Source: a bacterium
Lineage (GTDB): Bacteria; Desulfobacterota; Deferrisomatia; Deferrisomatales; BM512
Assembly (NCBI GenBank): GCA_004322275.1
Contig: SCTA01000041.1
Location: 1 to 64,000 of the forward strand
DNA length: 64,000 nt
Reading direction: 5' to 3'
Shown here in pieces: positions 1-59,056 of this stretch; positions within the stretch are counted from its first letter, which is position 1, and each line of letters starts with the position of its first letter. The translations under genes were made by a program, and so were the position numbers. The notes beneath the pieces were generated by a model. The model had not been told where the DNA came from. It saw nothing but the letters and a program-made list of their open reading frames with translations, and did no database searches.

Positions 1-270
1 TGCCTCGCGCTCCTAGCCACCTTTTGAGTGAGCAAAAGGTGGCCCAAAACTCAGCCCGGACCCGTCGCTCGCGCTTTAAAAAGCGCGACCACTTCGTTCC
101 GGCTGGGCCGTACGGGGCACCCACTACGCTTCGCTCCGTTAAGACCCGCGCCGGCCCGACGCCTCCACTCGTTGCGCCGCGTACGGGCCCCGTAGGGAGA
201 CGAAAAGAAGGCTCGCCGATAAGCGGAAGAGAATTGTTGGCTTATCGGCTCGAAGGTAATTTGTTTACAA
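1..270 (-). repeat. Structured repeat family A, copy A1 (cut by window edge)
   Basis: This non-coding element is read on the minus strand. It holds a terminal hairpin (ccttttgagtgagcaaaagg near 20-39), a middle region with hairpins such as cgctcgcgctttaaaaagcg, and an inner hairpin pairing 215-224 with 240-249. It ends at ctcgaaggtaatttgttta. Near-identical or structurally matching copies lie at 2611-2903, 37967-38252, 43064-43330 and 43340-43620. An open frame runs through it but is not coding, because the same sequence is found in both orientations between genes. Confidence 0.85.
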
Positions 271-327
271 GTATCAGAAACCGTGTTGGTCGCTTATCGC
301 GAGGCGAAAGGCGAAAAACGATTATGG

Positions 328-362
328 AATTGTCGGCTTTCGTGCCTCAAGCCGACCTACAC
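328..362. repeat. Short palindromic repeat, type D
   Basis: The sequence tgtcggctttcg...caagccgacctaca forms a short hairpin. Similar copies occur at 2926-2959 and 43668-43703, each next to a family A element. Such 'gtcgg...ccgacctac' hairpins are common intergenic repeats in proteobacteria. Confidence 0.6.
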
Positions 363-389
363 GGCTGCTGCGACGTTCGCACATCCTTT

Positions 390-428
390 AAAACGATAAG
401 GCCCGCAAATGCGGGCCTTATCGTTTTT
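390..428. terminator. Strong bidirectional terminator hairpin
   Basis: A 17-bp stem, aaacgataaggcccgc paired with gcgggccttatcgttt around an aaat loop, is followed by a T run on the plus strand and by a shorter T run on the minus strand. It sits about 65 bp past the stop of the AT-rich minus-strand operon and would end its transcription. Confidence 0.8.
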
Positions 429-433
429 CTATT

Positions 434-454
434 GGTGGGCGGAATCCACCCTAC
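434..454. repeat. Short hairpin repeat, type E
   Basis: The sequence gtgggcggaatccaccctac is a short hairpin ending in 'cctac'. A relative is at 43622-43642 (gatgggctaaagcccatcctac). This form of intergenic repeat is widespread in proteobacteria. Confidence 0.5.
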
Positions 455-493
455 GCGACTAAATTGGTTGTCGGTATAACATAATACAATTAT

Positions 494-1054
494 TTAGCTG
501 TACAATCTCAGCTTATTTAATATTAGTTCTCTGTGTAAATTTGAATACATAACGCTTGCATTACATGTAAGTATCCCTGTCTGCTGCGCCTTCCTTGATG
601 TCGGCAAATCAGTTGTCTCTTTCTTATATGCAAGATACTGGCGTTTTATTTCATCGGGGGCACAATCATTAGTGGTGATTTTTTTTGATGTGATTGCCTT
701 GTGCAGATAGTCGATATTTCTACTTAAATTTTTAATTTCCATCATTAAATTGATATAGTTGTCGTCGTTTGGCTGCTTCACATAATCATGGTATTTTTGA
801 TAAGACCTTTCAAGGCTAGTAGCAGCAAGGTCAAATAAGCTTGATACCATGTCTTTGTTTTTAAAATTATTATTTACAGATGTAACTATAAAAAGAGCGA
901 TGTATACCATAAAAAATGTTCTGCTAATTAAATCCAAAATTCCGAATAATTTTATATCATAAAAATTCTGGTACGATGATATCGGAGCCGTAAATATTTG
1001 TCCGAAAGCAAAACCAAATATAAAGATTAAAATACTAATTAAACTAGCGTGCAT
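494..1054 (-). CDS. Small membrane protein, third gene of the AT-rich cassette
   Basis: This 186-residue protein is not recognised as a named family. Residues 4-24 and about 36-60 are hydrophobic and probably form two membrane helices, followed by a hydrophilic, helix-rich cytoplasmic part with several lysines and a few cysteines. It overlaps the preceding STAS-like gene by 11 bp, so the two are almost certainly co-translated. Codon use is AT-rich, unlike the GC-rich genes elsewhere in the window, which points to acquisition by transfer. A membrane protein downstream of a regulatory ATPase and a STAS protein could be an output or effector, but that is inference. Confidence 0.75.
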   Translation of the reverse strand: MHASLISILIFIFGFAFGQIFTAPISSYQNFYDIKLFGILDLISRTFFMVYIALFIVTSVNNNFKNKDMVSSLFDLAATSLERSYQKYHDYVKQPNDDNYINLMMEIKNLSRNIDYLHKAITSKKITTNDCAPDEIKRQYLAYKKETTDLPTSRKAQQTGILTCNASVMYSNLHRELILNKLRLYS

Positions 1055-1358
1055 CTTTTATATACTGCGTAATCTCTTCAACTAATAAAGGATCTTCGCT
1101 GGACTTGAAAATAAACCTATCCAAACAACGCTTAGCACCGTAATCTCTTGCGATGCCACCAAAGGCTTCTTCCAAAAACGAAGTTGGGAACCCTGCGCAC
1201 CCATCAAGGTCAATCACTATTTTGGAATTATCGTTTTCGTCTCTAAAAAGAGGTACTAGTATACTAAGCCGGAATTCTTCACCGGAAAACGGGCCATCGT
1301 CAACAAAGCGTGCACCAGGTGTCCGCGAAAAATCGGTGGCAATATTTATCCTGTTCAT
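1044..1358 (-). CDS. STAS-like DUF4325 protein
   Basis: This 104-residue protein looks like the STAS-like DUF4325 family. It has a short N-terminal 'FSRTPGARF..DGPFSGEEFR' stretch, a beta strand 'KIVIDLDGCAGFPTSFLEEAFGG' (residues about 45-67, here split by a helix start), and a C-terminal strand-helix. STAS domains commonly bind partner kinases in switch systems, as SpoIIAA binds SpoIIAB. Here the gene starts 1 bp after the stop of a GHKL ATPase gene, so the pair may form such a switch. Base composition is AT-rich. The family call rests on remembered sequence features, not a search. Confidence 0.75.
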   Translation of the reverse strand: MNRINIATDFSRTPGARFVDDGPFSGEEFRLSILVPLFRDENDNSKIVIDLDGCAGFPTSFLEEAFGGIARDYGAKRCLDRFIFKSSEDPLLVEEITQYIKDAR

Positions 1359-1359
1359 A

Positions 1360-2373
1360 TCAAGATGCCTCTTTAAAATCAGAATAACTAAATTCCCACG
1401 CGAGCAGTGTACCCTTAAACCTATGCTTTAATTCGATAGTTTCACCCATCGCACATCGATACATCCCCCTATTAGATATAACTATCAAATCACTAATATT
1501 CTTAGTATTGTATGTTTCTTTCATGCTTGGCAACCCCTTACCGCGATGATGCTGCCTAGTGCTTGTCCTAAACTCCCCATCAAGTGCAGATTTAATCAAA
1601 GCACCATCTCTCAATTTTTTTAATTTAAGTTTTTTTGCTAGAGCGCCAACCATATCACCAAAATTCTTTGCGACCGTTGTAGGAATGCCCTTACCTGTGT
1701 CAAAAAAATAAAATCTGACTCGCTTTTTATCTTTTTCGTTTGATGCAATCATCCACCATTGATTTGTTTTATGCGAACTATCGTAAGCATGATGCCAAGT
1801 ATTAACCATACACTCTATAATAATGTTATAAATTCTTCTTGATTTTAGATCACGCTCTTGCCCTGTGTGCCTATACACAAAATCCAAGACATCATTGGCT
1901 AAAGGAGAATCTGATTTTTCTCCATTTCTGACCGTAAAATAATCTGATGAAGTAATAGTTGCGGATTTAGAAACAACAAAATCATAAAATCCAGACTTTC
2001 CAATCGTCTCTTTGCATTTTCTATCAAGCGGCAGGTTTCCGGATATGTTTAGAATATACTTTGCTTTTTTGGCCCTGTCAAGCAACGCAAGAAGGTATAG
2101 AACCGCATCAAGCGTTATTGTTTTTATTTTGGTCATATTGAAGAATACTTTTTTATTGTTATAAATTAATTCTTCTACCTTTGCGAAAGTGGAGACCATT
2201 TCATTTGGATTATCAACTACGCTAAATGCAGGAGGGCAATTTATGACATAACGATCATGCTGATCTTTTCCATAATATATTATTTTACTTATTCTTACTG
2301 ACCTGCGAAATTTTCGCCTTATAAATATCAACTGCCTTTTACGTGGCTCGCTGGGGCCAAAAATCTTTTTCAT
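1360..2373 (-). CDS. GHKL-type ATPase with N-terminal STAS-like region
   Basis: This 337-residue protein has a basic N-terminus, then a STAS-like stretch (about 70-130, including 'VFFNMTKIKTITLDAVLYLL'). A GHKL ATPase domain covers about 175-330. The N box 'IIIECMVNTWHHA' gives Glu187 and Asn191, the G1 box is 'FFDTGKGIP' (Asp225), and the G2 box is 'HRGKGLPSM' (about 276-284). No DHp histidine domain, membrane segment or receiver is visible, so it resembles anti-sigma-type kinases or MORC/Hsp90-like ATPases more than a sensor kinase. It is the first gene of an AT-rich three-gene operon bounded by inverted family A repeats. The role is unknown; regulation or defence are possible. Confidence 0.8.
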   Translation of the reverse strand: MKKIFGPSEPRKRQLIFIRRKFRRSVRISKIIYYGKDQHDRYVINCPPAFSVVDNPNEMVSTFAKVEELIYNNKKVFFNMTKIKTITLDAVLYLLALLDRAKKAKYILNISGNLPLDRKCKETIGKSGFYDFVVSKSATITSSDYFTVRNGEKSDSPLANDVLDFVYRHTGQERDLKSRRIYNIIIECMVNTWHHAYDSSHKTNQWWMIASNEKDKKRVRFYFFDTGKGIPTTVAKNFGDMVGALAKKLKLKKLRDGALIKSALDGEFRTSTRQHHRGKGLPSMKETYNTKNISDLIVISNRGMYRCAMGETIELKHRFKGTLLAWEFSYSDFKEAS

Positions 2374-2610
2374 ATCATTAAGCCTTGCAGGTCGTATTTA
2401 GAAAAACGCCGATCTGACAATTAGACCACATATTTTGTTTCTTTCGGTTTGTCTCTTTCATTATTAAATAACAGAGAATTACAAGTACATTGTTTTTTTG
2501 CGTTTCACACAAACCGCCTACAGCTTCTTACGACAACCGTTTCTAATTCTGCCCCTTTTTCTTTTTTCTGGCAACGGGATTGTTGTTTCCGTTTAAAAAT
2601 GCACCTTCCC
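2374..2610. other. AT-rich leader region without a recognisable gene
   Basis: This stretch separates the AT-rich operon start from repeat copy A2. It is AT-rich and must hold the operon promoter on the minus strand, but no convincing -35/-10 pair was found. A 63-codon plus-strand frame here has no protein-like features. Confidence 0.5.
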
Positions 2611-2903
2611 CTTTACGTAAAACTACCTTCGAGCCCATAAGCTGGTTACGACCCGCTTATGGGCGAGCCCGGAGCGTAGCGACCCTGCGGCGTCCCCCAA
2701 GGGGCCCGTACGCGGCGCAACGAGTGGAGGCGTCGGGCCGGCGCGGGGTCTTAGCGAGCATAGCGAGCGGGTGCCCCGTACGGCCCAGCCGGAACGAAGT
2801 GGTCGCTCGTAGAGCGAGCGACGGGTCCGGGCTGAGTTTTGGGTCACCTTTTGCTCACTCAAAAGGTGACTGGGGGCGCGGGGCGAAGCCTCGCAAGGTG
2901 TAG
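2611..2903 (+). repeat. Structured repeat family A, copy A2
   Basis: The element starts with ctttacgtaaaactaccttc and the stem cccataagc/gcttatggg. The middle region (cgcaacgagtggaggcgtcg and ggtcgctcgtagagcgagcg) is nearly identical to copies A1 and A3. It ends with the hairpin ccttttgctcactcaaaagg and a tail 'gggcgcggggcgaagcc'. It is inverted relative to A1, so the two copies face each other across the AT-rich cassette. Confidence 0.85.
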
Positions 2904-2925
2904 AAAAGGTTTTCACGAAATGGTT

Positions 2926-16575: not shown

Positions 16576-17493
16576 ATGAGCAGCGAAGAAAACATACAAA
16601 AACAGATAAGGCTTCTCGCCCGAGAGCGAAACGCCGTGATTTTGGCCCACAATTACCAGCGCGGCGAGGTGCAGGACGTGGCCGACCACACCGGCGACAG
16701 CCTCGGCCTCTCCATAATCGCCTCGAAGACAGACGCGAAAGTCATCGTCTTTTGCGGCGTCCACTTCATGGCGGAGAGCGCCTCCATCCTCTCGCCGGAA
16801 AAGACGGTCCTCCTCCCCCGGCTCGACGCGGGGTGCCCTATGGCCGACATGATAACCGCCGAAGACCTCATAAAAGTGCGCGAGGAGCACCCCGGCGTTC
16901 CGATAGTGACCTACGTCAACTCCTCCGCGAAAGTGAAGGCGGTCAGCGACATCTGCTGCACCTCGGCCAACGCGGTGAAGGTGACCAATTCCCTCCCGGA
17001 GAAGACCGTCTACCTCGCGCCGGACAGAAACCTCGCGCGGTGGGTGGCGCGCAACACCGACAAGAACGTCCTCTACTGGAACGGCTGCTGCCCCTCCCAC
17101 GAGCGGCTCACGGCCAGGGACGTGCTGGCGGCGAAAGCCGAGAACCCCGGCGCTCCCTTCATCGCCCACCCCGAGTGCAGGCCCGAGGTGATAGACCTCG
17201 CCGACGCGGTCCGTTCTACCTCCGGCATGCTGGAGTGGTGCAAGAATTCCTCCGCGAAGACGATAATAGTCGGCACGGAGACGGGTCTCTTCCACCAGCT
17301 CAGGAAAAACAGCCCCGACAAAACCTTCGTCGCGCCGACGGAAAAGCTCTTTTGCCCCAACATGAAGCTGACCTCCCTCGAAGACCTCCTCGTCTCCCTC
17401 GAAAAGATGGAAAACGTGATCGAGGTCGAGGAGAGCGTCCGCATTCCGGCGGCGAGGGCGCTGCAGAGGATGGTTGATGCCGGGCGAGACTAA
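16576..17493 (+). CDS. nadA: Quinolinate synthase NadA
   Basis: This 305-residue enzyme condenses iminoaspartate with dihydroxyacetone phosphate to quinolinate in de novo NAD synthesis. The three cysteines that hold its 4Fe-4S cluster are visible in '[12 protein letters not shown]', 'WNGCCPSHE' and 'KLFCPNMK'. The N-terminal '[16 protein letters not shown]' is a family signature. The ATG at 16576 was chosen for its ribosome site (ggaaggat) and for its fit with the promoter. nadB and nadC are not in the window. The gene is followed at once by palindrome B2. Confidence 0.97.
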
Positions 17494-17634
17494 GAGGATG
17501 CTGAAAAACTGTTGTGAGCCCCGTTTTCGGCGTCGCGTGCTCGCTCGAATCTCGCCTAACACCCGGTTATGTCTCGCTTCTCGCTGTGCGTCTCCTTGAA
17601 ACCGGGGCTTCTCACGACGTTTTTCAGCAACCTC
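17494..17634 (+). repeat. Palindromic repeat family B, copy B2
   Basis: It begins at the base after the nadA stop. The outer arms gatgctgaaaaac and gtttttcagcaacctc pair, and the next arms gtgagccccg and cggggcttctcac pair. The centre is cgtgctcgctcgaatctcgc. It may act as the nadA 3' end. Confidence 0.85.
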
Positions 17635-21146: not shown

Positions 21147-21149
21147 TAT

Positions 21150-21290
21150 GAGGTTGCTGAAAAACTGCTGCGAGCCCCTTTTACGGCGTCGCGTGCTCGC
21201 TCGCCGCTCGCCGTATTGACGCACACTGTCTCGCGACTCGCTGTGCGGCTCCTTGTAAACGTGGCTCTCGCGACGTTTTTAAGCAACCTC
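21150..21290 (+). repeat. Palindromic repeat family B, copy B3
   Basis: It starts 4 bp after the mfd stop. The outer arms gaggttgctgaaaaac and gtttttaagcaacctc pair almost fully, with inner arms ctgcgagcc and ggctctcgcg. Confidence 0.85.
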
Positions 21291-37175: not shown

Positions 37176-37322
37176 AAGGCTGTTGAAAAACTGTTGCGAG
37201 CCGCGTTTTTAAGTGTCGCCGTGCTCGCTCAGGGGCTCTCCGTAGCGCTGCTACTGTCTCGCCCCATCGCTACGCGGCTCCTTGAAACCGCGGCTTCTCC
37301 CGACGTTTTTCAGCAGCCTTTG
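37176..37322 (+). repeat. Palindromic repeat family B, copy B4
   Basis: The outer arms aaggctgttgaaaaac and gtttttcagcagcctt pair, and gcgagccgcg pairs with cgcggcttctcc. This copy lies between divergent genes (gatC and a radical SAM activase), unlike the others, which follow stop codons. The rest of the gap, 37057-37175, shows nothing clear. Confidence 0.85.
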
Positions 37323-37362: not shown

Positions 37363-37959
37363 TTGCTGAATATTCGCCACATCGCGGTAACGGAGGGGGT
37401 GAACGGGCCGGGAGCGCGCCTGACCGTCTGGGCGCAGGGCTGCCCCTTCGTCTGCGAGGGGTGCTTCAACCCCGAGCTTCGCCCCTTTGAGAACAAGCGG
37501 CTTCTTTCGCCTGAAAAACTGCTGGAGGAAGCGCTGAGCCTCGATTTTTCAGGGGTCACTCTCTCCGGGGGAGAGCCCTTCGCGCAGGCGGACGAGCTGG
37601 CCGATTTTCTCCGGCTGCTGAAGGCGAAGCGACCCAAAACCGGCGTCATCGCCTTCACCGGTTACACCCTCGCCGAGCTTAAAAACGGTCCCTGGGAACT
37701 CAAAAAGCTCCTTTGCGAAATCGACCTTCTGATCGACGGCAGATACGAGGTTCAAAGCCCTTCCGCCGGAAGCCTTCGGGGCTCCTCGAACCAGAGACTC
37801 GTTCCCCTTACCGAGACCGGCCTCGACCTTCTCGAAGAGATCGTCATGAACAGCCGCGCCGAGACCGCGCTGACGATAACCGGAGAGGGAGAGGTCATAG
37901 TCTCCGGCTTCCCCACGGCTGAATTCGTCCGCAACCTGCGAAACAAGCTCTCGGGATGA
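37363..37959 (+). CDS. Radical SAM activating-enzyme-like protein (NrdG/PflA type)
   Basis: This 198-residue protein carries the radical SAM cluster motif CxxxCxxC in 'AQGCPFVCEGCFNP' (Cys27, 31, 34) and the SAM-binding 'VTLSGGEPFAQADEL'. Length and motif order match glycyl-radical activases, especially the NrdG-like short form. No glycyl radical enzyme is adjacent, so its partner is unknown. The start is TTG with gcaggg upstream. Confidence 0.85.
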   Translation: MLNIRHIAVTEGVNGPGARLTVWAQGCPFVCEGCFNPELRPFENKRLLSPEKLLEEALSLDFSGVTLSGGEPFAQADELADFLRLLKAKRPKTGVIAFTGYTLAELKNGPWELKKLLCEIDLLIDGRYEVQSPSAGSLRGSSNQRLVPLTETGLDLLEEIVMNSRAETALTITGEGEVIVSGFPTAEFVRNLRNKLSG

Positions 37960-37966
37960 GTTTTTT

Positions 37967-38252
37967 TAGCTGTAAACAAAAAACCTTCGAGCCGATAAGT
38001 TCATATAATTTACTTATCGGCGAGCCTTCTTTTCGTCCTACTCGTGGCCCGTACGCGGCGCAACGAGTGGAGGCGTCGGGCCGGCGCGGGGTCTTAGCGA
38101 AGCGATAGCGGAGCGAGTGCCCCGTACGGCCCAGCCGGAACGAAGTGGTCGCGCTTTTTTAAAGCGCGAGCGACGGGTCCGGGCCGATTTTTTGGGCACT
38201 TTTTTCTAAAAAAAGTGCCATGGGTGCGGGGCGAAGCCCGGCAAGTTGTAAA
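37967..38252 (+). repeat. Structured repeat family A, copy A3
   Basis: It starts agctgtaaacaaaaaacc, then the stem ccgataagt/acttatcgg. The middle is almost identical to A1 and A2. Later hairpins are gtcgcgcttttttaaagcgc and ggcacttttttctaaaaaaa with its partner gtgcc. The tail is 'ggtgcggggcgaagcccgg'. It fills the gap between the activase stop and the convergent methyltransferase; nothing else is seen there. Confidence 0.85.
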
Positions 38253-38302
38253 TTCCCGAGTTCGTCCAATGCCTTCGCCGAAAACTCTCGGGGTAAGCGT
38301 GG

Positions 38303-39007
38303 TTACTTAACCGCTCTCAGAACCCCCTTCCCCAAGGGCATGAACCTCTCGACGATCTCGACTTCGGCCTCCCGGAAACCGGCCCCGAGACACAGTGCTT
38401 CCCATTCCCCCGGCGAAACCGCGCCACCTACGCAAAACGCCCACGCCTCCGGGTCTTTTCTCAGCTCTTCCCCAAGCTCGCCCAGCGCCATTACGTCGGC
38501 GAGGAGCCACCTCCCGCCGGGTTTCAGTATCCTGAAGACCTCTTTCGCCAGCAATTGCTTGTCGAAGACGAGATTGGCCGCCCCGTTGGTCAGGACGTGG
38601 GTGAAAGAATCGCTCTTGAGGGGGATATCGGGGAGGAACCCCTCCACCGCCTCGCACTCCCCCGAAGCCGCGGCAAGGTTCCGCAGCATCCCCCGGCTCG
38701 CGTCGAGGGAGACGACCCTCGCGCCCGCTCCAGCGAGCCAGAGGGTGTCGAGCCCTGAGCCGCAGCCTAGATCGGCGACGGTCAACTCTCCTCCCTCTTT
38801 CATAATTTCCCCCGCGAGGGGAAAAGCCCCGACGAAGCCGTCCAGAGTCTCCCTTCCGGCCTTCGCGACGATGTCCGGAGGATACCCGAGCGAAAGCGCG
38901 AGCGCCTCGCCGGTGGGAAAAGCCAGTCCTCCGGGAGCGCGCGAGCCCTCGGCGGCTATCCGCTCGTAAGCGGCTTCCACGGCCTTTTTTATCGCTTCCT
39001 TTTCCAT
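38303..39007 (-). CDS. Class I SAM-dependent methyltransferase, ArsM-like
   Basis: This 234-residue protein has a SAM-binding Rossmann fold: 'VADLGCGSGLDTLWLAGAGA' (motif I, about 76-95), 'VVSLDASRGML' and 'LKPGGRWLLADV'. The N-terminal part 'LAFPTGEALALSLGYPPDIV' and the C-terminal 'AFCVGGAVSPGEWEALCLGA' resemble arsenite methyltransferases, including Cys residues near the ArsM positions. The typical ArsM Cys pair is incomplete, so the substrate may differ. It stands alone. Confidence 0.78.
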   Translation of the reverse strand: MEKEAIKKAVEAAYERIAAEGSRAPGGLAFPTGEALALSLGYPPDIVAKAGRETLDGFVGAFPLAGEIMKEGGELTVADLGCGSGLDTLWLAGAGARVVSLDASRGMLRNLAAASGECEAVEGFLPDIPLKSDSFTHVLTNGAANLVFDKQLLAKEVFRILKPGGRWLLADVMALGELGEELRKDPEAWAFCVGGAVSPGEWEALCLGAGFREAEVEIVERFMPLGKGVLRAVK

Positions 39008-42973: not shown

Positions 42974-43063
42974 ATTATATAAATCCTATGCATGCCTCAA
43001 GCCATGTAGCCGCGCAGGTGGGTTCGGCCCACCAACTACGCCAAAACATTAATGTGATTATAT

Positions 43064-43330
43064 AGTTGCGGGGCTGTTCGCCCCTGCGCCCCAACACCGC
43101 TTCTTTTGAGCGCCCAAAAGAAGCGGTGGGAAGAAAAGGCGCGCCCCCTTTGCGCCAAAGCGCTCGTTCATCGCTCGGCGAGCGCGCAAATCGCCACGGG
43201 CTCATGGCGCGCTCGGAACACCCTCGCTCTCTCACTCGCTGGCGCCGGAGGGCGTGGGGAACGAAAATAAGGCTCGAACAAAAGCGAATCTTTTTGAGCT
43301 TTTGTTCTCGAAGGTAGATTTTCTGCACAT
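43064..43330 (-). repeat. Structured repeat family A, copy A4
   Basis: On the minus strand it begins after ctcgaagg with the stem gaacaaaagc/gcttttgttc. It ends with the hairpin accgcttctttt.../aaaagaagcggt and tail 'ggggcgcaggggcgaac'. The middle differs from A1-A3, but the order of hairpins is the same, so it is a diverged subtype. Confidence 0.7.
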
Positions 43331-43339
43331 ATCTCAAAT

Positions 43340-43620
43340 AGCTATAAACAAATTACCTTCGAGCACACGAGAGCAAATAATCCTTCTCGTGTGCGAGCCA
43401 TCCTTTCGTCCTCTTCGTGGCCCGTAGGTGACGCAGGGAGCGGAGGCGGAAAGGGCGGCGGGGGGGTCTTAGTGAGCGTAGCGAACGGGTGCCCCCTCAC
43501 GCCCCCGCCGTAGCGACCGGTCGCTCGAAGAGCGAGCGTCTCCTTCCGGGCCGATTTCTTGGGTACTTCTTTCTAAAAGAAGTACCAAGGGGAGTGGGGC
43601 AGAGCCCCACAGACGTAGAC
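43340..43620 (+). repeat. Structured repeat family A, copy A5
   Basis: It begins agctataaacaaattaccttc and the stem cacacgaga/tctcgtgtg. Later hairpins are ggtcgctcgaagagcgagcg and gggtacttctttctaaaaga with partner agtacc. The tail is 'gagtggggcagagcccc'. It faces A4 head to head with only about 10 bp between the inner ends. Confidence 0.75.
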
Positions 43621-43808
43621 CGATGGGCTAAAGCCCATCCTACATAAATAGCTAAAACAATTAAGGTATTGTCGGCTTTCGTTCCTCAAGCACGACCTAC
43701 ACGCTAAAAGAAGTACCCAGGGTGCGGGGCGCGCCAAGCCCCGCTAGCCGTAAACGTGCGCAGCACACAAAAGTCACTGGTTTCCCGCATTCGCGGGAAT
43801 GACGAAAT
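43621..43808. repeat. Cluster of short repeats after A5
   Basis: It contains a type E hairpin (gatgggctaaagcccatc, 43622-43642), type D (43668-43703), a partial family A tail (aagtacccagggtgcggggc near 43712-43745) and type F (ttcccgcattcgcgggaatg, 43777-43804). No gene is present. The last hairpin may end the minus-strand transcript of the AI-2E gene. Confidence 0.6.
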
Positions 43809-46463: not shown

Positions 46464-47621
46464 ATGCGTATAGGAATACTAACCGGCGGCGGAGACGTTC
46501 CGGGTCTAAATCCCGCGATAAGAGCCGTAGTAACCCGCGCGATGGCGGAGGGCCACACCGTTCTTGGGTTTCGCCGGGGCTGGATGGGGCTACTCCACCT
46601 CAATCCCGACGACCCGGAGAGCGTCAGGGAATTCACCCTTGAGCTGAACCTCGACAATACGCGCACGGTGGAGCGCAACGGCGGAACCTTTCTCCACACC
46701 GCCCGCGTAAACCCCTGGGGCGTCGCACCCAAGAGCGTTCCCGCCTTCATATCGCAAGACCTGCTGCGCCCCGGCGAGGGGGGGAAGATCGACTGCACCC
46801 TCCACGTCAAAAAGGTGCTCGAAAGGATGGGGATAGACGTTCTGGTCCCGATCGGCGGCGAAGATACCCTCGGCTACGCCTCCCGCCTCCACCGCGAAGG
46901 CTATCCGATGGTCTCCATACCCAAGACGATGGACAACGACGTCTTCGGCACCGACTACTGCATCGGTTTTTCCACCTCGATAAGCCTCTCCGTGAAATAC
47001 ATCCACCAGCTTCGCACCTGCACCGGCTCCCACGAGCGCATCGGCGTGGTGGAGCTTTTCGGCCGCTATTCCGGCGAGACTTCCCTCATCGCGGGCTACC
47101 TCGCCGCCGCCGACCGGGTGCTCATTCCCGAGGTTCCCTTCAATCCCGAGAAGGTGGCGGAGCTGATACTGCGCGACAAGAAGGCCTGCCCCTCGCACTA
47201 CTCGATGCTCACCATCTCCGAGGGCGCTCTTCCCGAGGGCGGGGACATTCACCAGACGGGCGAGGCCGACGCCTTCGGCCACAAGAAGCTGGGCGGCATC
47301 GGCCAGCAGCTCTCAAAGAAGATAGAAGAGGTCACCGGCGAAAAGACTATGTTCCAGACGCTCGGCTACCTCATGCGCTCCGGCCCGCCCGACGCGCTTG
47401 ACCTGATGGTTGCGAAGAACTACGGCAATTCGGCGATGGACCTGATCTCCAGAAAGGAATTCGGCCGGATGGTCGCTCTGCAGGGCGGCAAGTACACCCA
47501 CGTACAGGCCGACATGCCCCTGATGGGCTCCAAGACCGTCGATGTCGATACCCTCTACGACAGGGAAAACTACCTGCCCCGGATAAGGACCGCCGTCGGG
47601 CTCCCGATGTTCCTCTACTAG
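46464..47621 (+). CDS. 6-phosphofructokinase, PPi-type active site
   Basis: This 385-residue enzyme has the PFK fold: '[20 protein letters not shown]' (nucleotide/PPi loop), '[10 protein letters not shown]' and '[18 protein letters not shown]'. In ATP-dependent enzymes these read GGDG(S/T) and PGTIDND. Asp in place of the second Gly and Lys in place of Gly are accepted marks of pyrophosphate-dependent PFK, so this is likely reversible and PPi-linked. '[20 protein letters not shown]' is the usual sugar-phosphate helix. aaaggag precedes the ATG. Repeat B5 starts at its stop. Confidence 0.93.
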
Positions 47622-47744
47622 GGAAGCGGCTGTGAGCCCCGTTTTCTGTGTCGCGTGCTCGCTCGAAGCTCGCCTAACACCCGGTTATGTCTCGCTTCTC
47701 GCTGCGCGTCTCCTTGAAACCGGGGCTTCTCGCAACGCTTCCCC
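47621..47744 (+). repeat. Palindromic repeat family B, copy B5
   Basis: It starts within the pfkA stop. The outer arm is gggaagcg instead of the usual ...gaaaaac, and the far end is cgcttccc, so the change is matched on both sides. The inner arms tgagccccg and cggggcttctcg also pair. The interior is as in B2. Confidence 0.85.
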
Positions 47745-47845
47745 TGCCACAGGGGTGCGCCTTTTCTTTCCCCCATTTCTTCTGGGCGCTCAAAAGAAAT
47801 GGGGCCGGGGTCAAGGGGTGAAACCCCTTGAAGGCAAGGGTCGGC
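47745..47845. repeat. Partial family A tail unit
   Basis: It holds a hairpin ccccatttcttctgggcgct, continuing 'caaaagaaatgggg', followed by 'aaggggtgaaacccctt'. The layout matches the 3' end of family A copies (compare aagaagcggt in A4). It lies between B5 and the next gene. Confidence 0.6.
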
Positions 47846-57886: not shown

Positions 57887-58918
57887 ATGCACATGGCCGA
57901 TGCGCTCGTATCTCCCGCCGTTGGCGGCGCGGTATGGGCCGCCACAGCAGCAGCCACCCTTTACTGCGCCAAAAAGGTGCGAGAAGAGATGGACGACCGC
58001 AAGGTTCCCCTGATGGGGGTTCTCGGCGCTTTCATCTTCGCCGCCCAGATGCTGAATTTCACCATACCGGCGGCGGGCTCCAGCGGCCACCTCGGCGGCG
58101 GAATGATCCTCGCCATACTTCTCGGGCCTTACGCGGCTTTTATCGTGATGGCCTCGGTGCTGGCCGTGCAGGCGCTCTTTTTCGCCGACGGCGGCCTTCT
58201 GGCGCTTGGCTGCAACATCCTGAACCTCGGCTTTTTTCCCTGCTTCATCGGCTACCCCCTCATCTACAAAAGGGTCGCCGGAAAAACCCCCTCTTCGGGG
58301 CGCATAATGGCGGGGGCGATGATCTCGTCGATTGTCGGCCTGCAACTCGGCGCTTTCGGGGTCGTGCTTGAGACCGTCGCGTCAGGGGTATCGGAACTTC
58401 CCTTCGGCACCTTCGTCTTCCTCATGCTGCCGATCCACCTCGCCATCGGCGTAGTCGAAGGGCTCGCCACCGCCGCCGTGGTCACCTTCGTCTGGCGCGA
58501 GCAGCCCGACATCCTCCTTCGCGCCGCCTCCGGCAATCAATCCGGAGGAGCATCCATGAAAAGAGTCCTCGCCGGGCTGGGTTTATTCGCGCTGCTGGCG
58601 GGAGGCCTCCTTTCGTGGTTCGCCTCGACGAACCCGGACGGCCTCGAATGGTCTATCGCGAAAATAACGGGGAAGGGCGAGATAGAGGCGAAAGAGGACG
58701 GCGTTCACGCCGCGCTTAAGGATATTCAGAAAAAGACGGCTCTGCTTCCGGACTACGGATTCAAGGAATCCGGGGGGGAGGAAAGCGAAGCGAAGAACAA
58801 CGGTTTCTCTCCCGAGGCGGGGACGAGCGCCGCGGGGCTCGTCGGCGGCGCAGTAACCCTTCTTCTTGCCGCCGGTTTCGGCTGGGCGCTTAAGCGCCGC
58901 AACCAGCCGGCCGCCTGA
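57887..58918 (+). CDS. nikMN: Fused nickel transport protein NikMN
   Basis: The 343-residue protein joins the S component NikM/CbiM (1-215) to a NikN/PDGLE domain (225-343). It begins 'MHMADALVSPAVGGAVW'; the N-terminal Met-His-Met binds the metal in this family. 'GAFIFAAQMLNFTIPAAGSS' and 'GGGMILAILLGPYAAFI' are NikM signatures. The second part has one helix, 'NPDGLEWSIAKI', a periplasmic segment, then a last helix. It takes up nickel with NikQ and NikO on the opposite strand. gaaggaa precedes the ATG. Confidence 0.94.
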   Translation: MHMADALVSPAVGGAVWAATAAATLYCAKKVREEMDDRKVPLMGVLGAFIFAAQMLNFTIPAAGSSGHLGGGMILAILLGPYAAFIVMASVLAVQALFFADGGLLALGCNILNLGFFPCFIGYPLIYKRVAGKTPSSGRIMAGAMISSIVGLQLGAFGVVLETVASGVSELPFGTFVFLMLPIHLAIGVVEGLATAAVVTFVWREQPDILLRAASGNQSGGASMKRVLAGLGLFALLAGGLLSWFASTNPDGLEWSIAKITGKGEIEAKEDGVHAALKDIQKKTALLPDYGFKESGGEESEAKNNGFSPEAGTSAAGLVGGAVTLLLAAGFGWALKRRNQPAA

Positions 58919-59056
58919 GGCTGTTTAAAAACTGCTGCGAATCCCGCCTTCGGCGTCGCGTGCTCGCTCGAATCTCGCCTAACAGTCAGTTATGCCTCGC
59001 TTCTCGCTGCGCGTCTCCTTGAATCCGGGGTTCTCGCGACGTTTTTAAACAGCCTC
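58917..59056 (+). repeat. Palindromic repeat family B, copy B6
   Basis: It starts inside the nikMN stop codon. The outer arms gaggctgtttaaaaac and gtttttaaacagcctc pair perfectly over 16 bp, with the inner arms ctgcgaatccc and ggggttctcgcg. It is the best example of the family. Confidence 0.9.

Follow-up and report, generated by a model that had tools for sequence, protein, structure and literature searches.

A dispersed multi-hairpin repeat of a Deferrisomatales bacterium, a proposed REP/BIME-like mobile element

A non-coding element of about 290 nt, composed of hairpins in a fixed order, is dispersed through the genome of a bacterium of the Deferrisomatales and is probably, if by no means certainly, a non-autonomous mobile element of the REP/BIME-like kind that is mobilised as a single folded strand. 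The stretch of DNA that was analysed (the window, 64,000 nucleotides) comes from a genome (G000) of 2.88 Mb and 45 contigs, in which it is contig C41. The five long copies claimed by the first-pass annotation were all located in the window, together with the tail of a further copy:

2-276 (-): copy A1, central type A, cut off at the contig end (nhmmer and sequence)
2618-2906 (+): copy A2, central type A (nhmmer and covariance model R1)
37963-38254 (+): copy A3, central type A (nhmmer, model positions 3-293, 289.8 bits)
43061-43334 (-): copy A4, central type C, head-to-head with A5
43336-43620 (+): copy A5, central type B, head-to-head with A4
43703-43758 (+): tail fragment of a further copy from half of hairpin 4 onward, a direct repeat (nhmmer, model positions 243-295)

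The stem sequences quoted for these copies were found and are paired in every copy, and the near identity that had been noticed in the middle of A1-A3 corresponds to their common central type A, A4 being of type C and A5 of type B. The five copies all exist, with the refinement that A4 and A5 make up one head-to-head pair, while A3 is a single copy flanked by convergent genes (37363-37959 on the + strand and 38303-39007 on the - strand). An end at 38252, as first drawn, does not apply to the element in general because most copies run on into a terminal hairpin drawn from an exchangeable set; as read by eye, these 3′ hairpins either have GTAG/CTAC at their borders or show CGTC on the opposite strand, and the core of the element begins with TACC. 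A different repeat family, likewise intergenic, with termini resembling GCTGAAAAAC ... GTTTTTCAGC, occurs in the window at 17491-17629, 21147-21286, 37177-37315, 47609-47747 and 58914-59052.

The common structure consists, in order, of the motif TACCTTCGAG, hairpin 1, a central stem with hairpin 3 on its 3′ side, and hairpins 4 and 5. In A3, where a conserved unpaired motif, CCTTCGAG, lies immediately 5′ of hairpin 1, the parts are located as follows:

37991-38021 (+): hairpin 1, arms 37991-38000 and 38012-38021 (GCCGATAAGT/ACTTATCGGC)
38044-38187 (+): central domain, a long interrupted stem with GGCC/GGCC closing (covariance model R1, 148.1 bits)
38149-38169 (+): hairpin 3, arms 38149-38157 and 38161-38169 (TCGCGCTTT/AAAGCGCGA)
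38195-38219 (+): hairpin 4, the 'last stem' of the first description, arms 38195-38205 and 38209-38219
38226-38242 (+): hairpin 5, GC.GGGC / GCCC.GC

Fold statistics were taken from an alignment of 38 full copies, in which one fold of 63 pairs leaves 98.2% of cells paired, compared with 39-44% after sliding of the 3′ partners. The + strand of A3 has a minimum free energy z-score of -4.7, a value that none of 100 shuffles equalled; on these grounds, and by the covariation score given below, the fold of A3 and the pairing of the family are not due to chance. It is the + strand whose fold is relevant: the energy of the alignment fold is -87.6 kcal/mol for +, compared with -70.8 for -, the + strand folds better than the - strand in 36 of the 38 single copies, and there are 183 G-U cells against 14 A-C cells in the 38 copies when read on +. 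The structure was chosen with G-U allowed, and a fairer count is therefore that of the pairs that are usually Watson-Crick, among which 38 G-U cells stand against 14 A-C cells. Both an RNA and a single-stranded DNA form are compatible with this asymmetry. In four copies of the genome the central stem houses inserts of about 145-168 nt, which are palindromic and related (C1:79657-79823, C3:21612-21780, C8:29521-29688 and C32:40537-40683).

With the copy at 37960-38260 as query, 52 BLAST matches were obtained genome-wide; a genome-wide covariance-model search, of the kind proposed at first pass, returned 76 matches to the central-domain model, and with a full-element profile 97 elements and fragments were recovered from the regions retrieved. 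The family thus amounts to about 90 copies, fragments included, a count that is based on search matches and is approximate because contig ends may have led to a few places being counted twice. Matches occur in only two of the 297 genomes of the phylum, G000 and its congener G001 (metagenome-assembled genome SRXB01, isolate D1FMe1.002, about 70% identical to G000 at a syntenic locus); the element is absent from the other 295, including G002-G004 of the same family. G001 has ten diverged copies with different stems and the same order of parts, 5′ motif and head-to-head layout. Eight of these copies, which are few and related, independently give the same layout, again with the better fold on +, and the energies for the congener are -59.3 on the + strand versus -44.5 on the - strand. 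A phage or plasmid origin was rejected, since neither the phage nor the plasmid collection yielded a match and the pattern was not found in viral contigs; pattern matches in one Lachnospiraceae contig and one Chloroflexi contig were taken as chance because neither contig gives a match to R1.

The sites of the element are biased towards convergent genes. By a simple codon-score script for gene calling, which left 34 further sites without a called flank outside the count, 21 sites lie in convergent, 9 in tandem and 4 in divergent gene gaps (n=34), whereas, of the adjacent genes in these regions that have no element between them, 8 pairs are convergent, 60 tandem and 17 divergent (n=85); the excess in convergent gaps (21/34 versus 8/85) has p = 1e-8. 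This preference may be only survival bias. An unlikely alternative is that the element is a structured RNA useful to the host, its copies being transcribed 3′ UTRs that would serve, where genes converge, as two-way barriers to transcription, as processing sites or as stabilisers of mRNA. The position of copies directly downstream of genes and terminators, the stability of the fold and the retention of G-U on one strand all accord with such a function, but the copies occur in either orientation, many are truncated, about 90 of them are changing fast in one genus only, and recombinants with broken central pairs persist, for example L066, of which the 5′ half is type B and the 3′ half type A.

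Matched changes on both arms, which had been the basis for proposing selection on the fold or copying through it, were confirmed, and in hairpins 1, 3 and 4 they exceed a phylogeny-aware null. Changes on both arms affect 27 of the 63 pairs, and the covariation score is 0.331, compared with 0.04-0.065 for slid pairings. Related copies inflate such scores, and column changes were therefore simulated on the tree of the copies by an R-scape-like script (not R-scape itself). In this check, seven pairs of the structure lie beyond the phylogenetic background at E < 0.05, all of them in hairpins 1, 3 and 4, and twelve pairs of the structure have E < 1; twelve column pairs passed the tree null overall, of which five lie outside the structure. 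The E-values are approximate because the exchange of whole hairpins between copies violates the assumption of a single tree. The significant pairs of hairpin 1 are alignment columns 37-69, 38-68, 39-67 and 41-65; its variants include GCCGATAAG, GTCCAAAAAC, GCACACGAG, GAACAAAAGC, GCAAATGAGC and others, with pairing that is nearly always complete. In hairpin 3, the significant pair 239-251 is U-A in 21 copies and G-C in 17. Pairs 284-310 and 290-304 are significant in hairpin 4, and hairpin 5 (pairs 319-341 to 325-335) has four pairs changed on both arms. Central types A and B are separated by compensatory pairs, and the double changes of the central domain, which mostly follow this split and are individually non-significant in the tree null, amount to one historical split. 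The identity of the copies ranges from about 68 to 100% and they are mosaic, which refutes the reading that recent identical duplication alone explains them.

It is quite improbable that the fold is unselected and the covariation mutational, the arms staying complementary through arm-to-arm copying (template switching in quasi-palindromes) and gene conversion. Most of the significant pairs do lie in hairpins 1 and 4, which have short loops, and the stems exist as a few discrete alleles common to copies as blocks; however, the both-arm changes between types A and B also involve central pairs whose members lie as much as about 130-155 columns from each other, and the strand asymmetry is not predicted.

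The copies are arranged in a characteristic manner. In 27 pairs the 5′ ends of two copies face one another, at a distance of about 0-10 nt in 26 cases, and among the 21 pairs that could be typed with the three central types, all are A-B, B-C or A-C and none is like-like (0/21). Like-like pairs may be missing partly through assembly, since long perfect palindromes assemble badly. At three places (C15:83843, C3:207 and C5:103109) the head-to-head partner is cut directly after TACCTT, truncations that are consistent with cleavage or a break point there. Three opposed pairs have been opened by cargo, at window positions 277-2617, at C9 44978-45883 and on C15, and this cargo is the one feature in favour of integron attC-like sites (folded single strands on which a tyrosine recombinase would capture cargo between opposed copies), an extremely doubtful identity given that the Rfam search produced no attC match, that most pairs hold no cargo and that no array beside an integrase came to notice. 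Between the opposed A1 and A2, the window contains three genes of atypical codon use (494-2373, - strand), one of them with DUF4325; the C15 cargo (C15:81467-83752) is a defence-like gene between two opposed copies, to which a Pfam search assigned nSTAND3 and Mrr-like endonuclease domains.

The locus of A3 offers a comparison with an empty site. In G001, the orthologues of its flanking genes (a radical-SAM protein and a methyltransferase) are adjacent, convergent and almost gapless without the element, so that the copy was either gained here or lost there; the empty site of the congener can thus be explained also as a loss. The final 13 codons of the upstream gene recur in diverged form downstream of A3, at 38258-38296 (EFVQCLRRKLSG versus EFVRNLRNKLSG). 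As the differences are largely synonymous, this one site suggests that A3 may have arrived with, or beside, a recombination between two versions of the gene. Comparison of the flanks revealed no general target-site duplication, only other hairpin repeats and the special case of 38258-38296, and no terminal inverted repeat was established; the termini of the element vary.

The proposal that a REP/IS200-type enzyme moves the hairpin element agrees with its manner of life, namely unlike-partner dimers, convergent gene gaps and neighbouring hairpins that by eye look GTAG- or CGTC-tagged, but not with the gene content of its carriers. The search for movers covered the Y1_Tnp and RVT_1 families and yielded no candidate enzyme in the carriers. 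Y1_Tnp (PF01797) had positive controls and, of the 13 genomes searched, 10 have it, with 0 matches in G000 and G001, although a gene lost in assembly gaps would escape; the TnpA-REP (Y1) gene that was sought is thus found in neither carrier, and on this ground a resident Y1_Tnp was rejected as the mover. The only reverse-transcriptase match (L166 1141-2401, contig C8 of G000) is in two broken frames with no copy adjoining, and mobilisation by reverse transcriptase as a group II intron-like retroelement was rejected because this sole enzyme is broken and unlinked to the copies. The L166 reverse transcriptase resembles defence-type enzymes.

For the preferred reading of a non-autonomous REP/BIME-like element we infer movement, the folded strand as its substrate and an enzyme acting in trans. 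The trans-supplied enzyme would recognise the + strand hairpins, in single-stranded DNA more probably than in RNA, together with the unpaired 5′ motif TACCTTCGAG. Copies would be inserted in gene gaps, where those downstream of genes would survive best, and selection on the folded substrate would preserve the pairing of the arms while their sequences drift. Recombination between copies would swap whole hairpins, producing the mosaic, and the long palindromes formed by two like copies would be lost, leaving pairs of unlike type. It is rather unlikely that the element represents a new class of short mobile element confined to one genus, in which a one-strand multi-hairpin fold is the substrate of a non-Y1 enzyme and hairpins are swapped while the architecture is kept. 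The architecture survives across two species whose stems share little sequence, and the copies constitute a natural library of compensated variants for asking what recognises the fold. The element also allows one to ask whether covariation in a repeat can stem from mobilisation and not from RNA function in the host.

Among known systems, MITE-type elements (bcr, ERIC, NEMIS, Correia and similar) are short, non-coding, dispersed and structured once transcribed. The present element is likewise short, non-coding and dispersed, but it differs in folding better on one strand, and neither terminal inverted repeats nor a target duplication nor a parental transposase was established for it. With Rfam's structured RNAs, IS-linked and intron RNAs among them, it shares covarying stems and a one-strand fold; it matches no known Rfam family, as none reaches its gathering score over the copies of the window (the only match in the window is a tRNA) and seven tested loci with copies gave no credible match. 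Many bacterial palindromic repeats consist of one hairpin and are associated with a Y1 transposase, whereas here a multi-hairpin unit occupies about 90 places and that enzyme was not found. REPs are single palindromes of 20-40 bp (Di Nocera 2013, PMC3733652; Nunvar 2010, PMC2817692), and REPs and BIMEs are high-copy and extragenic, form head-to-head or unlike-partner dimers, take convergent or downstream positions and may have RNA activity (PMC3733652; PMC2817692). Like the GTAG/CGTC REPs and BIMEs, the element is high-copy and extragenic, in convergent and unidirectional gaps downstream of genes, and forms opposed dimers of unlike partners (27 pairs, 21 typed); by eye, its exchangeable terminal hairpins resemble GTAG- or CGTC-tagged REPs. 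In contrast to the REPs, its unit of about 290 nt is about ten times longer and arranges ordered hairpins around a long central stem, and no RAYT gene was found in G000 or G001. Two defining tests therefore separate them, the unit being too long and ordered and the REP enzyme not having been found; not a REP by definition, the element works like the REP family.
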